Positions 8,898-17,596 of a stretch of DNA of 38,058 nt are shown piece by piece. Both the position numbers and the translations under genes were made by a program. Positions within the stretch are counted from its first letter, which is position 1. Every line of letters starts with the position of its first letter. The stretch is taken from contig JAJRUJ010000013.1 in assembly GCA_024277855.1 (NCBI GenBank), positions 1 through 38,058 on the forward strand, in the 5' to 3' direction. Source of the DNA: Candidatus Zixiibacteriota bacterium. GTDB taxonomy: Bacteria > Zixibacteria > MSB-5A5 > WJJR01 > JAJRUJ01. The notes under the pieces are model-generated. The model was not told where the DNA came from. It saw nothing but the letters and a program-made list of their open reading frames with translations, and searched no databases.

Positions 8898-8933
8898 ATG
8901 CGCAAAAGACTGAACTCGGATTGAGGATTGTCG

Positions 8934-10583
8934 ATGTTGAAACTCGTGGGCAGTGACGGCGAACGTTTTTATTCCTGGGAACTGGCGCCGGGGCAGTATA
9001 CCCTTGGGCGGCACAACCAGGCCGATTTCTGTGTCCCCGACAAAACAGTCTCGCGTAAACACGCCTCGCTGAAGATTCCCGCCGAGGGTGACGCGTTCGC
9101 GTTGACTGATTTAGGCAGCCATAACGGCACAACTCACAACGGCCAACGCGTCGAGGGAACAGTCGAGGTCAAAGCCGGTGATCGGCTGACTTTCGGCCAT
9201 GTCGATTTCAAAGTTGTTGCGCCGGGGACCGACAACGGCCCTAAATCCAGCCCGACGATTAGCCACCGGCCTGCGGCCGACCTCGAAAAATCGGTCGTCC
9301 TCTCGATCGATGAGGCCCTCAGCCGTCTGCCCACCAAGATGGCCGGTCTGCCCGATATCATGAATGCGGTTTCGGAAATGGCGCGGATGATTGTCCACTC
9401 CGAGCCAAAAAATGTGATGTTGCAGCGTTCACTCGAACTGGTCGCCAAGGTTGTTCCCGGCGAGCGGTTGGCCGCGCTGATCAAATCGGCCGACGGCGAG
9501 GATGTCGAGATCGCGGCGGCGATACTGCCTCAGGGCAAAGACCTGGGAGATTTCAACCTCTCGACGACGCTGGTCAACGATATCCTTACCAATAAAAACG
9601 CAATTCTTATCGAGGACACCCAGCGCGACCAACGATACGCCCAGCAACATTCGGTGATCCTCTCCGGAATGAAATCGGCAATGGCAGTGCCGTTGTTTGA
9701 TGAGGGCGAGGTTCACGGGATTCTCTATGTCGACACGACTAACCCGGTCCATCGCTACAACGACGACTATCTCCGGCTGGTCGCGACATTCGGCAACATC
9801 ATCGCCTCGCGGCTGCAAAACTACGCGCTTTTGGATGAGCGTGAAGAGCGGCGGATCATGGAGGCCGAGATGGACCGTGCGGCCTCAATCCAGAGCTTTT
9901 TGCTGCCGCATTCGTCGCCGGATGTTCCCGGCTATCAGATCAGCGCATTCCACGAGGCCTCTCGGCAGGTGGCCGGCGACCTCTACGACTTACGGTTGCT
10001 CCCCGATGGGCGACTGGTGTTCATGGTCGCCGATGTCAGCGGCAAGGGGATGGGCGCCGCGCTGTTGATGTCCGATATCCTTGCGGCATTTCGCGTGCAG
10101 TATCATGATGATAATTTCGACCTCCGCCGGGCAGTCGAACTGGTTTCACGCGAACTCTGCGCCCACAGCGCGCCGGGCGATTTTGCCACACTCTTTGTCG
10201 GAGTACTCGACCCAGTGTCTCACCAAATCCGCTATGTCAACGCCGGGCATCCCTACCCGATGCTGGTCCACGCCGACGGGAAAATGGAGGAACTCGAATC
10301 ATCCGGGACGATGATCGGCGCATTTGAACATCTGACCTGGGATGTTTGCGAAGCGACATTTGCCCCGGACGATGTTCTCTTTGTGTTTACCGACGGGGTG
10401 ACCGAGGCCGAAAAAGGGGAGGAGCAGTACGCCGATCTGCGCATGGTTCCCAAGGTGATCGAATTGCGCACCCTCCCGGCCGAGGAGATTACCCAACGAC
10501 TGGTCGACGACGTTATGGAGTTTGCCGACGATGCCTCCGGCTCAGACGACATCACGATGCTTGTCCTCAAACGCGAGATATAG
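8934..10583 (+). CDS. FHA-GAF-SpoIIE (PP2C-type) serine phosphatase
   Basis: The ATG lies 7 bases behind GAGG; an in-frame TTG two codons earlier is too close to that site. The 549 residues hold three domains. The FHA domain (about 20-95) includes YTLGRHNQADFCV, VSRKHASL and GSHNGTTHNG and would bind phosphothreonine. A GAF domain (about 135-285) includes GMKSAMAVPLFDEGEVHGILY and probably senses a small molecule. The SpoIIE/RsbU phosphatase domain (about 320-548) includes VAGDLYD, VADVSGKGMGAALLM, VNAGHPYP, FTDGVTE and SDDITM, which hold the metal-binding Asp residues. RsbU-like enzymes dephosphorylate anti-sigma antagonists; FHA input suggests a link to a Ser/Thr kinase encoded elsewhere. 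No partner-switch genes are adjacent. Confidence 0.93.
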   Translation: MLKLVGSDGERFYSWELAPGQYTLGRHNQADFCVPDKTVSRKHASLKIPAEGDAFALTDLGSHNGTTHNGQRVEGTVEVKAGDRLTFGHVDFKVVAPGTDNGPKSSPTISHRPAADLEKSVVLSIDEALSRLPTKMAGLPDIMNAVSEMARMIVHSEPKNVMLQRSLELVAKVVPGERLAALIKSADGEDVEIAAAILPQGKDLGDFNLSTTLVNDILTNKNAILIEDTQRDQRYAQQHSVILSGMKSAMAVPLFDEGEVHGILYVDTTNPVHRYNDDYLRLVATFGNIIASRLQNYALLDEREERRIMEAEMDRAASIQSFLLPHSSPDVPGYQISAFHEASRQVAGDLYDLRLLPDGRLVFMVADVSGKGMGAALLMSDILAAFRVQYHDDNFDLRRAVELVSRELCAHSAPGDFATLFVGVLDPVSHQIRYVNAGHPYPMLVHADGKMEELESSGTMIGAFEHLTWDVCEATFAPDDVLFVFTDGVTEAEKGEEQYADLRMVPKVIELRTLPAEEITQRLVDDVMEFADDASGSDDITMLVLKREI

Positions 10584-14588: not shown

Positions 14589-15146
14589 CTACTTGCCACT
14601 CAGCAACCGAGTACAATTATCGCAGAACTTGTCGGTCTTGGCGTCGCAGTCGGACATATCATTGCAATGATACATCACACAGCGGGGGTTGCGGCAATAT
14701 CGAGCCAGATGTAAATATCCAATCAGTGCGGTCGCTTCTTTCTTCACCCGTTCGATGACAACCTTGTCGTCTTCCGGCAGGCCATAAAATTCTTGTTTTA
14801 ACCGATAAAGCGAAAGTAGCGCACACCCGGCGTAGGGGTCGGCCTCGGCATAGACAAACGGCTTGGTCGGGATATAGAGGTCCTCATCGACAATTGCCAG
14901 AATCTTCTCTTTATCGTTGGCTTTCAATCGCTCCATTTTCCCCAGCATCACCGATGAAAAATACTGCAATCGCGCGGGACTATACGCTTCCTCCGGCGGC
15001 TCAGCACCCTGGATAATATCCACCGGCGAAGTGAAGGCCTCCGATAACCGTCCGGCCAGTTTATTAATCTGAAAAAAATCCAGATCGCCGATCGGGACGA
15101 TGATTATTTTCGAACGCGATTTCATCATCGGCTTGTTGATTATCAT
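14589..15146 (-). CDS. Archaemetzincin-like protein lacking the catalytic zinc site
   Basis: The start chosen has GAGG upstream and gives 185 residues. The sequence follows archaemetzincin throughout: IIIVPIG (14-20), YSPARLQYFSSVMLGK (55-70), ILAIVDEDLYIPTKPFVYAE (82-101), LLSLYRLKQEF (110-120). The family signature is HExxHxxGxxHC-x4-C-x-M-x17-C-x2-C. Here the Cys part is intact (C151, C156, C175, C178, with M158). The protease part is not: the aligned positions are A140 for His, L141 for Glu, and Y144 and Y150 for the other His residues. It should therefore still bind one structural zinc but cannot be an active metalloprotease of this class. The frame is intact, so this looks like a maintained pseudoenzyme. 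It overlaps the small Cys-rich gene upstream. Confidence 0.82.
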   Translation of the reverse strand: MIINKPMMKSRSKIIIVPIGDLDFFQINKLAGRLSEAFTSPVDIIQGAEPPEEAYSPARLQYFSSVMLGKMERLKANDKEKILAIVDEDLYIPTKPFVYAEADPYAGCALLSLYRLKQEFYGLPEDDKVVIERVKKEATALIGYLHLARYCRNPRCVMYHCNDMSDCDAKTDKFCDNCTRLLSGK

Positions 15147-15334
15147 GTTGCCTCGAAGAACCGGTTGTCCGAACCGTAGGGCGATACGCGGACTCTCATC
15201 TGCGCGGCGCAACGCGGGCACCAGGCGACGTACGCATCGCCTTTCTTGTTCAAGTACGCCCGCACGTACACGCGGCAGCACTTAAAATGCACGCCGATAA
15301 ACGGTCGTCCCCTGCCTTCCTTTTTGTTGTTCAT
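15143..15334 (-). CDS. Small Cys-rich, zinc-ribbon-like protein
   Basis: A 63-residue basic protein. It holds HFKCC near residues 17-20 and WCPRCAAQM at about 38-46, so two Cys pairs (CC and CPRC) could bind zinc. The ending RVRVSPYGSDNRFFEA looks ordered. I recall similar short proteins from other uncultured bacteria, without a known function. Its stop overlaps the start of the archaemetzincin-like gene (ATGA) and it begins 20 bases after the ROK gene, so it is in the same transcript. The Shine-Dalgarno is weak. Despite its size, the Cys motifs and the tight overlap argue it is real. Confidence 0.65.
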   Translation of the reverse strand: MNNKKEGRGRPFIGVHFKCCRVYVRAYLNKKGDAYVAWCPRCAAQMRVRVSPYGSDNRFFEAT

Positions 15335-15354: not shown

Positions 15355-16338
15355 TCAGTCGGCCGTCGGGGCCGAACTCATCATTCCCAGCGCCGCCGCG
15401 CCGATGAAACCCGCCTGATTCCCTAATTTTGCCGGCACGATCCGGATTTTTCGCGTGGCCGATTTGAAAGTCAACCTCGCCGTTTTTTGAGCGATGATTT
15501 TCACAAATTCCGCGTCGGCGTCCACCACTCCGCCGCCAATTATCAGTATTTCCGGATCGAACGCGTTGAATACCCCGGCCAGCCCGATCGCCAAATCATC
15601 GGTCACCGCCTGTAGTAATTTGACCGCAATCTGATCGTCGTTTTTGGCCGCCGCGAAAATACCGGCCAGCCGGGAATCGTCTTCTTTGGTAAAATCGATT
15701 TTCGCCAACTTACTGTCCGGGTGGAATTGCGCCAGTTTTGCCGCTCGATCCAATACCGCGGTGGCCGAAGCATAAATTTCCAGGCAGCCGCGATTTCCAC
15801 ACCCGCACCGCTCGCCGTCGGCCCGAATCGACACATGCCCTAACTCGCCACCCGACGAATGCGCACCGTGGAATACCTCGCCGTCGATAATAATCCCCGA
15901 GCCGATCCCCGAACCCAGCGTCATCACGATGACATTTTGCAGTCTTTTCCCCGCGCCGAATTTATATTCGGCGAACGCCGAGCAGTTGGCGTCGTTATCG
16001 ACCACAACCGGCAGGCCGAATTTGGTGAAAGGCGAGCGTAACTCGACATCGACCCAGCCGCGGAGGTTTGGTGATTCACCGGTAACCCGCCCCGAACGAA
16101 CGTCAACTGTTCCCGGTGAGCCAATCCCCAATGATTGAGCGGTATATTTTTTCTTCCGGCAGTTCTCGATCAGCCCGTCGAGTACATCGAGCAGAACCCG
16201 TAGCAGCGACAGCGGTCCCGAGGAAAGGTCGGTCGGTGTCCGACGAGAGATGATGACTTTGCCCTCGTCGTCGATCGCGCCGTACTTGACAAACGATCCC
16301 CCGATATCGATCCCCAAATAGGCCGATCTGTCGGTCAC
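15355..16338 (-). CDS. ROK-family sugar kinase (glucokinase-like)
   Basis: ROK kinases phosphorylate glucose or other hexoses with ATP. I chose GTG (MTDRSAYLGIDIGG) because GGGAGG lies 4 bases upstream; an in-frame TTG four codons earlier would begin inside that site. The 327 residues show the phosphate loop GIDIGGSFVK, the sugar-binding VVVDNDANCSAFAEY with catalytic Asp, VMTLGSGIGSGIII, the ExGH motif in GGELGHVSI, and the zinc motif CGCGNRGCLE. The adenine-binding end is ILIIGGGVV. Glucokinase is the likeliest activity; N-acetylmannosamine or fructose kinases are alternatives. It lies between an aminotransferase and the Cys-rich/archaemetzincin-like pair. Confidence 0.9.
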   Translation of the reverse strand: MTDRSAYLGIDIGGSFVKYGAIDDEGKVIISRRTPTDLSSGPLSLLRVLLDVLDGLIENCRKKKYTAQSLGIGSPGTVDVRSGRVTGESPNLRGWVDVELRSPFTKFGLPVVVDNDANCSAFAEYKFGAGKRLQNVIVMTLGSGIGSGIIIDGEVFHGAHSSGGELGHVSIRADGERCGCGNRGCLEIYASATAVLDRAAKLAQFHPDSKLAKIDFTKEDDSRLAGIFAAAKNDDQIAVKLLQAVTDDLAIGLAGVFNAFDPEILIIGGGVVDADAEFVKIIAQKTARLTFKSATRKIRIVPAKLGNQAGFIGAAALGMMSSAPTAD

Positions 16339-16363
16339 CCTGCCTCCCAATAGTCAGATGCAT

Positions 16364-17596
16364 CTAATGTGATGTTTTGTACCGTTCCAGTCCATGGCCG
16401 AGGGCGGTCATTGCTCTGATCAATTTGTCGGTTTCGAGCACATAAGCGATCCGCGCCTCGTTGTTGCCGATTCCCGGTGTGGCATAAAATCCCGGCCCCG
16501 GCGCCATCATCACCGTCTGGTTTTCATAAGAAAAATCGGTCAACAGCCATCGGCAGAAATCTTCGATATCGTCGACCGGAAAACCACCCATAAAATAAAA
16601 CGCCCCCGACGGTTTCCGGCACGAACATCCCGGTATTTTATTGAAATGTTCGATCACCGTATCGCGGCGTTTGCGGTATTCAGCGGTCAATTCCCGATAG
16701 TAATCCTTGCCCAGGTCCATCGCCCGCGCGGCGGCGATCTGCTCAATCGTCGGCGAACACAGTCGCGCCTGGCCCATCCGCAGGACCGCATCCATAATTT
16801 CCGGGTTGCGCGAAACCAGGCACCCGATGCGTGCCCCGCAGGCCGAATACCGCTTGGAAATGGAGTCCAGTAAAATCGCCCCTTCGGCGATTTCCGGGAA
16901 TTCCATAATCGAAGTATGCGATCCCTCGTAACAGAACTCGCGATAGACCTCATCGGAGAGGACAAACAGGTTATGTTTCCCGGCCAGTCCGACGATTGTA
17001 TTGATCTCCTCGCGAGTCAACACCGTCCCGGTAGGATTGTTCGGCGAACAAATAAAAATGGCCTTCGTCCGGTTGGTAATTTTGGCCTCGATCGCTTTTG
17101 CCGGGGGGAGATGATACCCCGTCTGCGGATCGGTTGCCAAGGGAACAAGTTTCACCCCGGCCGTAATTGCGAAACCCGTATAGTTGGTGTAGTACGGTTC
17201 AAAGACAATCACTTCGTCGCCCGGATTACAAACCGCCATCAGCGCAAAAAGGATCGCCTCCGATCCGCCGGTCGTGACCTGGATTTGCTCCGGCGGGATA
17301 TCCAATCCGACTTGTTTGTAATATCGCGAAAAACCGGCCAGCAAATCGGCTTGTCCTTGCGAATGCCCGTAGGCCAGCACCGGCTGATCGAAAGAACGGA
17401 CTGCCGCCAAAAATTCCGGCGGTGTCGGCACATCGGGTTGGCCGATATTCAATCCGTATATTGTTATCCCGCGTTCTTTGGCGGCGGTCGCATATGGGGC
17501 CAGTTTGCGGATTGGCGAGGCAGGCATCCGCGCCGACCGTTCGGACAGGCGGGCCCTACTCTGATCGGTGGCGGAAACGGTTTTCTGCTGTGTCAT
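16364..17596 (-). CDS. PLP-dependent class I/II aminotransferase (aspartate aminotransferase-like)
   Basis: A fold-type I PLP enzyme that moves an amino group between an amino acid and a 2-oxoacid. The ATG follows AAGGGGTGA. Of 410 residues, PLP-binding parts include TTGGSEAI (108-115), SPNNPTG (184-190), LSDEVYREF (213-221) and the Schiff-base Lys248 in DSISKRYSACGARIG. The Arg for the substrate carboxylate is in EARIAYV near the end. Substrate is not certain: aspartate or an aromatic amino acid is plausible. The N-terminal 25 residues are a polar extension. It begins the minus-strand unit that includes the ROK kinase. Confidence 0.9.
   Translation of the reverse strand: MTQQKTVSATDQSRARLSERSARMPASPIRKLAPYATAAKERGITIYGLNIGQPDVPTPPEFLAAVRSFDQPVLAYGHSQGQADLLAGFSRYYKQVGLDIPPEQIQVTTGGSEAILFALMAVCNPGDEVIVFEPYYTNYTGFAITAGVKLVPLATDPQTGYHLPPAKAIEAKITNRTKAIFICSPNNPTGTVLTREEINTIVGLAGKHNLFVLSDEVYREFCYEGSHTSIMEFPEIAEGAILLDSISKRYSACGARIGCLVSRNPEIMDAVLRMGQARLCSPTIEQIAAARAMDLGKDYYRELTAEYRKRRDTVIEHFNKIPGCSCRKPSGAFYFMGGFPVDDIEDFCRWLLTDFSYENQTVMMAPGPGFYATPGIGNNEARIAYVLETDKLIRAMTALGHGLERYKTSH

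Follow-up and report, generated by a model that had tools for sequence, protein, structure and literature searches.

A zixibacterial archaemetzincin homologue without its catalytic zinc site, encoded beside a small cysteine-containing protein

The role of archaemetzincins is largely unknown, and their activity has been hard to detect even in canonical members of the family (PMC3427221). CarG of Myxococcus xanthus is an archaemetzincin homologue without protease activity, which acts only as a CarD-CarG complex (PMC8156234, PMC4374960). It carries an E->Q change, is stabilised by zinc, and is translationally coupled to carD (PMC8156234, PMC4374960, PMC3427221); it nevertheless retains HQxxHxxExxH and binds two zincs (PMC8156234). 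In vertebrate AMZ1, the third zinc-binding histidine is replaced by Asn, Ser or Thr; this is reported as the only ligand changed, and the activity of the protein is doubted (PMC3427221). A review of inactive metallopeptidases names neither M54 nor CarG (PMC11266112). The idea of a non-proteolytic archaemetzincin is not new, as CarG and the corresponding NCBIfam model NF033824 provide a precedent. What is new in the case described here, in which fold, motif loss, zinc-site retention, purifying selection and gene pairing were all established computationally, is the extent of the loss (all of the ligands and the motif glycine), its depth (most of a phylum, with intermediates), and an uncharacterised partner with four cysteines.

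The gene lies in a 38,058-nucleotide stretch of DNA from a Candidatus Zixiibacteriota genome, the whole of which is referred to as the window. It occupies 14589..15146 (-), and encodes a pseudo-archaemetzincin of 185 aa, P0001, recognised through PF07998, AlphaFold and Foldseek as having an M54 fold that lacks the zinc site for catalysis. The frame runs for 185 codons from an ATG at 15146 (-) to a stop at 14589, with zero internal stops, and a GAGG ahead of the ATG (15151..15154, (-)) may be a Shine-Dalgarno-like element. A promoter scan scored the real sequence no better than shuffles. An earlier note, made from the sequence alone, had proposed homology to archaemetzincins over the full length, and this is well founded: residues 48-182 match Pfam Peptidase_M54 (PF07998) with 59.9 bits, above the cut-off of 24.4, and the archaemetzincin model of NCBIfam, NF033823, covers residues 13-181, nearly the full length, at 130 bits, short of its cut-off of 145. 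The AlphaFold model, for which 102 relatives were the input, has a mean pLDDT of 94.5 and a pTM of 0.88. Rather than another fold, the best solved structures found with it by Foldseek were the archaemetzincins 3lmc, 3zvs, 2x7m and 4axq (E 1.8e-19 to 2e-15), with 3lmc at E 1.8e-19 and TM 0.82, and TM values of 0.78-0.90 across solved archaemetzincins. P0001 therefore shares with AmzA (M54; 3lmc, 3zvs, 4axq, 2x7m) the fold, the Cys4 zinc site and a full-length alignment at 28-30% identity, but it lacks all three zinc histidines, the catalytic glutamate and the motif glycine.

The former catalytic motif (residues 140-150; 14697..14729, (-)) reads ALIGYLHLARY instead of HExxHxxGxxH. Alignment with canonical copies places Ala140, Leu141, Tyr144, Leu147 and Tyr150 at the H-E-H-G-H positions, and alignment to 3lmc/2x7m in the PDB gives the same placement, such that a test for the canonical motif failed on the sequence ALxxYxxLxxY. 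The four substitutions previously reported were thus correctly assigned, and Leu147 adds the loss of the glycine. Whereas AMZ1 is altered at a single ligand, the window protein keeps none. The structural zinc site, C151-x4-C156-x-M158-x16-C175-x2-C178 (14613..14696, (-)), is by contrast intact, as the earlier reading of C-x4-C-x-M-x16-C-x2-C had it, and conforms to the Cx4CxMx16-17CxxC pattern with its Met-turn. Its four cysteines are invariant in the alignments (79/79 members of the degenerate clade described below, 13/13 rows of the sister clade and 31/31 canonical rows). P0001 is predicted to be free of proteolytic activity and to bind one zinc per monomer. The Met-turn methionine, present in P0001 as Met158, is kept in only 18 of the 79 clade members and lost in 61, in which a second hallmark of the metzincins is therefore gone. 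It is replaced by Asn in 50 of the 79 (for example in L030 and L096), by His in eight and by Leu in three.

The history of this loss was reconstructed from 127 extracted M54 sequences, in which the five motif positions were read, and from a tree built without the motif columns. Among relatives with a name, Candidatus Zixiibacteriota isolate DeMMO3_3 is the closest. The window protein joined other sampled Candidatus Zixiibacteriota rows in a single clade (n=79, SH-aLRT 97), and none of these 79 rows has a complete motif: 41 have the first and second histidines without the catalytic glutamate, and 38 have lost more. A careful tree of 87 rows recovered the degenerate clade (54 sampled members) with a bootstrap/SH-aLRT support of 95/96, and its sister clade, with the motif HE/QxxHxxGxxN, at 100/100; this sister clade resembles AMZ1, in that it too alters the third histidine (His->Asn). 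Near the base of the degenerate clade are copies whose motif is complete or almost so (f14, HEHGH; f13, HEHNH), as well as f9, with HQHGH. One f13 copy, in G023, retains HELGHTMNLHH at the same aminotransferase-kinase-archaemetzincin-MrfA locus, which makes it very likely that the complete motif was present in the ancestor. The loss is shared by a clade at the level of the phylum, with many intermediate states, and is apparently inherited vertically; the window lineage has reached the far end of the path seen in its relatives. All close relatives lack the full motif, so the window copy is not a local mutant, a possibility that the earlier note had raised. It had also asked whether the A/L/Y/Y changes are shared by close homologues and under purifying selection; the selection is there, but the letters are not shared, the sister genus having N/Q/Y/Y, and only the loss of the motif is common to them.

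The protein itself has been kept. Of 58 whole genomes from this class, 55 have an M54 protein, and the profile of the degenerate group matches 83 of the 84 phylum genomes that are at least 90% complete. As the phylum has mostly dropped the catalytic site, yet keeps the protein, the archaemetzincin fold would seem to have a selected non-catalytic role. A common role of pseudo-peptidases is to regulate an active relative (PMC11266112), and P0001 might by analogy act on an active archaemetzincin paralogue, either as its chaperone or as a dominant-negative regulator; four sampled genomes do contain both kinds of protein. However, of the 30 sampled genomes that encode a clade member, 26 lack a canonical copy, and no second M54 copy was found in the window genome, the completeness of which is estimated at 100%. 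This reading is therefore rejected for the window genome, unless the assembly misses a paralogue, and is very improbable overall.

Patterns of substitution separate the former catalytic site from the rest of the protein. Within the clade of 79, a ranking by entropy puts the five columns of the motif at 128, 145, 143, 173 and 176 of 180, whereas in the 31 canonical rows the same columns are invariant save for one G->N. For non-canonical pairs with dS<1 (n=11, of which six stem from one group of four sequences), dN/dS is 0.025-0.07, compared with 0.074-0.19 in six canonical pairs; the window's own nearest pair (L001-L032) is saturated at synonymous sites, making its dN/dS uninformative. The best reading is that function was kept despite the loss of proteolysis, because strong purifying selection acts on the fold and Cys4 site, whereas the catalytic columns are left to drift. 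This much of the earlier interpretation, that selection kept the fold and the structural zinc but not proteolysis, stands computationally; it had missed that the loss is clade-wide, and that the gene is paired with another. Decay of the gene, or a mutation peculiar to this copy, might be suspected from the lost catalytic residues and from the saturated dS to the nearest sampled relative. It is scarcely credible given the clade-wide loss, the dN/dS of the unsaturated pairs, the invariant cysteines, the intact gene run and the near-universal retention across the phylum, which together rule it out and bear out the earlier view that the gene is not decaying. Neither the clade nor its basal orthologues vary at five residues that other paralogues rarely have (G47, E72, D103, D176 and R180), whereas M164 is exclusive to the degenerate clade. 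The fixed residues may mark a non-catalytic surface that was in place before catalysis was lost.

A different possibility is that the old cleft still hosts an enzyme, with other chemistry or another metal. Archaemetzincins have mouldable clefts (PMC3427221), at least one of the first two histidines persists in 46-51 of the 79 relatives, and the third position is often Glu or Asp. Hence many zixibacterial relatives may still hold the second zinc without the catalytic base, as judged from the pattern H-Q-x-x-H-x-x-D/N-x-x-E. Yet every column of the former catalytic site ranks with the most variable in the clade, the window protein retains none of the residues, and no new invariant set of His, Asp or Glu has arisen within the old motif, such that we regard continued enzymatic activity as improbable. 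Relatives with H-Q-x-x-H-x-x-D/N-x-x-E/D, combining two histidines with an acidic third ligand position, include L038, L030, L084 and other f8-type loci.

The comparison with CarG is closer in logic than in detail. Like CarG, P0001 is an archaemetzincin homologue, predicted to be non-proteolytic, that keeps the Cys4 site and is encoded right after a probable operon partner. It could therefore be a CarG-type transcription co-factor, acting through an RNA-polymerase-binding protein of the CarD/CdnL family as in Myxococcus: CarG itself combines the E->Q change with coupling to its partner gene (PMC8156234, PMC4374960, PMC3427221), the members of A1 all match NF033824 weakly (28/28), and many relatives have genes for an ECF sigma factor and an anti-sigma-like zf-HC2 protein upstream. 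Against this, P0001 scores 80 bits with NF033824, the model for non-proteolytic archaemetzincin-like proteins, far under the cut-off of 250, and has ALxxYxxLxxYC in place of the CarG motif HQxxHxxExxHC. Upstream there is no carD gene, its place being taken by a gene for a protein unlike CarD, termed small63. The sole PF02559 (CarD_TRCF_RID) protein of the window genome is encoded by a 1160-aa frame of Mfd size (G000:C32:22717-22884), and hence this genome is without CarD or CdnL. On score, motif and partner P0001 was rejected as a CarG orthologue, and a CarG-type mechanism is a poor prospect more generally; the window protein is CarG-like in logic, by analogy, but is not CarG.

The small63 gene (15143..15334, (-)) encodes a zinc-finger-like protein of 63 aa with a CC...CPxC pattern, and shares an ATGA (15146-15143) with the pseudo-archaemetzincin gene, the stop of the one overlapping the start of the other. 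Translation of the pseudo-archaemetzincin is therefore probably coupled to that of small63. The cysteines of CC...CPxC are invariant, and the AlphaFold model is a four-stranded beta fold (pLDDT 82). Pfam and NCBIfam contained no family for small63, its profile found no credible relative among PDB sequences, a search of plasmids gave no match, and a fold search returned nothing below E 0.5, Tudor/KOW/Elf1-like shapes not being significant; the family merits a model of its own. Within the one class surveyed, 33 of 58 related genomes encode small63, and in 31 of these 33 its gene immediately precedes that of a non-canonical M54 protein on the same strand; in G008, one of the two exceptions, the M54 gene is at a contig end. 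Across 78 loci with adjacent small63 and M54 genes, the M54 protein is canonical in 0/78, and the gap is mostly -4 to ~30 nt for members of the degenerate clade, those of the sister clade having longer ones. Some clade members, those of f10, G002 and G004, have no small63 beside them.

Such adjacency suggests that small63 and the pseudo-archaemetzincin may form a physical complex. The association could instead reflect phylogeny and not function, in which case the positions of small63 and of the helicase discussed below would be no more than conserved gene order, and P0001 would be a lone binding protein. Every observation comes from one class, and the aminotransferase-kinase part of the run does look like merely inherited order: the PLP-dependent aminotransferase that is the first gene (16364..17596, (-); PF00155, NF005744) and the ROK-family sugar kinase that follows (15355..16350, (-); PF00480) are ordered as in related families. 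However, the pair outlives replacement of what lies upstream, be it the aminotransferase and kinase (f1, f2, f11, f15) or DeoB-DeoC with the ECF sigma and zf-HC2 genes (f8), and its spacing is overlapping or very short, leaving this alternative unlikely, if still worth weighing.

We accordingly favour, with moderate confidence, the reading of P0001 as a non-proteolytic, structural-zinc binding or scaffold protein of a zixibacterial pseudo-archaemetzincin lineage, working with small63, for which an MrfA-like helicase is a pathway lead. An ancestor with a complete HExxHxxGxxH at the locus would have lost the catalytic glutamate and the zinc ligands in steps, while selection for binding or scaffold work would have retained the metzincin fold, the structural zinc and certain residues with no part in catalysis; the likely partner would be small63, whose gene comes just before. 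The pathway lead comes from the other flank, where a DEAD helicase with Helicase_C, WHD_HRQ1 and MZB domains is encoded at +1 in 38 of the 51 loci with enough sequence. MrfA of B. subtilis, the eponym of the MZB domain, repairs mitomycin C damage (PMC11194089; PMC12458937). As a gene for an MrfA/HRQ1-like helicase follows in most relatives, the best lead for the pathway is DNA repair, or some other process that involves nucleic acids. The MrfA/HRQ1-like (YprA-family) helicases are neighbours only in the genomic sense, downstream in most relatives and not adjoining in the window, where the next gene downstream encodes a CitMHS transporter. The link points to a pathway without demonstrating it, because the MrfA-like gene of this genome sits on another contig, and a functional tie is conjecture. 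The adjacency is also independent of the loss of catalysis, because the f13 orthologue with catalytic residues has it too, and MrfB was not seen as a recurrent neighbour. That the two proteins form a zinc module across Zixibacteria, in which a protease-derived scaffold and small63 serve the helicase in processing DNA lesions through a binding surface older than the loss of catalysis, is a tentative extension that we consider rather doubtful as a whole.

The residues fixed both before and after the loss hint at which surface matters, the small Cys4 partner offers a direct handle for pull-down tests, and the graded motif states HEHGH, HQHGH, HEHGN, HQHDE and ALYLY amount to a natural experiment in the stepwise loss of a metal site. 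Two loci carry the zixibacterial gene pair, and were placed inside the zixibacterial clade, under other titles (L090, Ignavibacterium; L091, Calditrichaeota); these are mislabelled or contaminated bins, or cases of transfer. In f8-type loci (L090, L124 and others), positions -6 to -2 hold genes for an ECF sigma factor, a zf-HC2 protein, a DUF6263-like protein, a DeoB-like metalloenzyme and a DeoC-like aldolase. Elsewhere in the window, a 551-aa protein (8928..10583, (+)) has weak NCBIfam matches to an N-terminal FHA domain and a C-terminal SpoIIE-type phosphatase.
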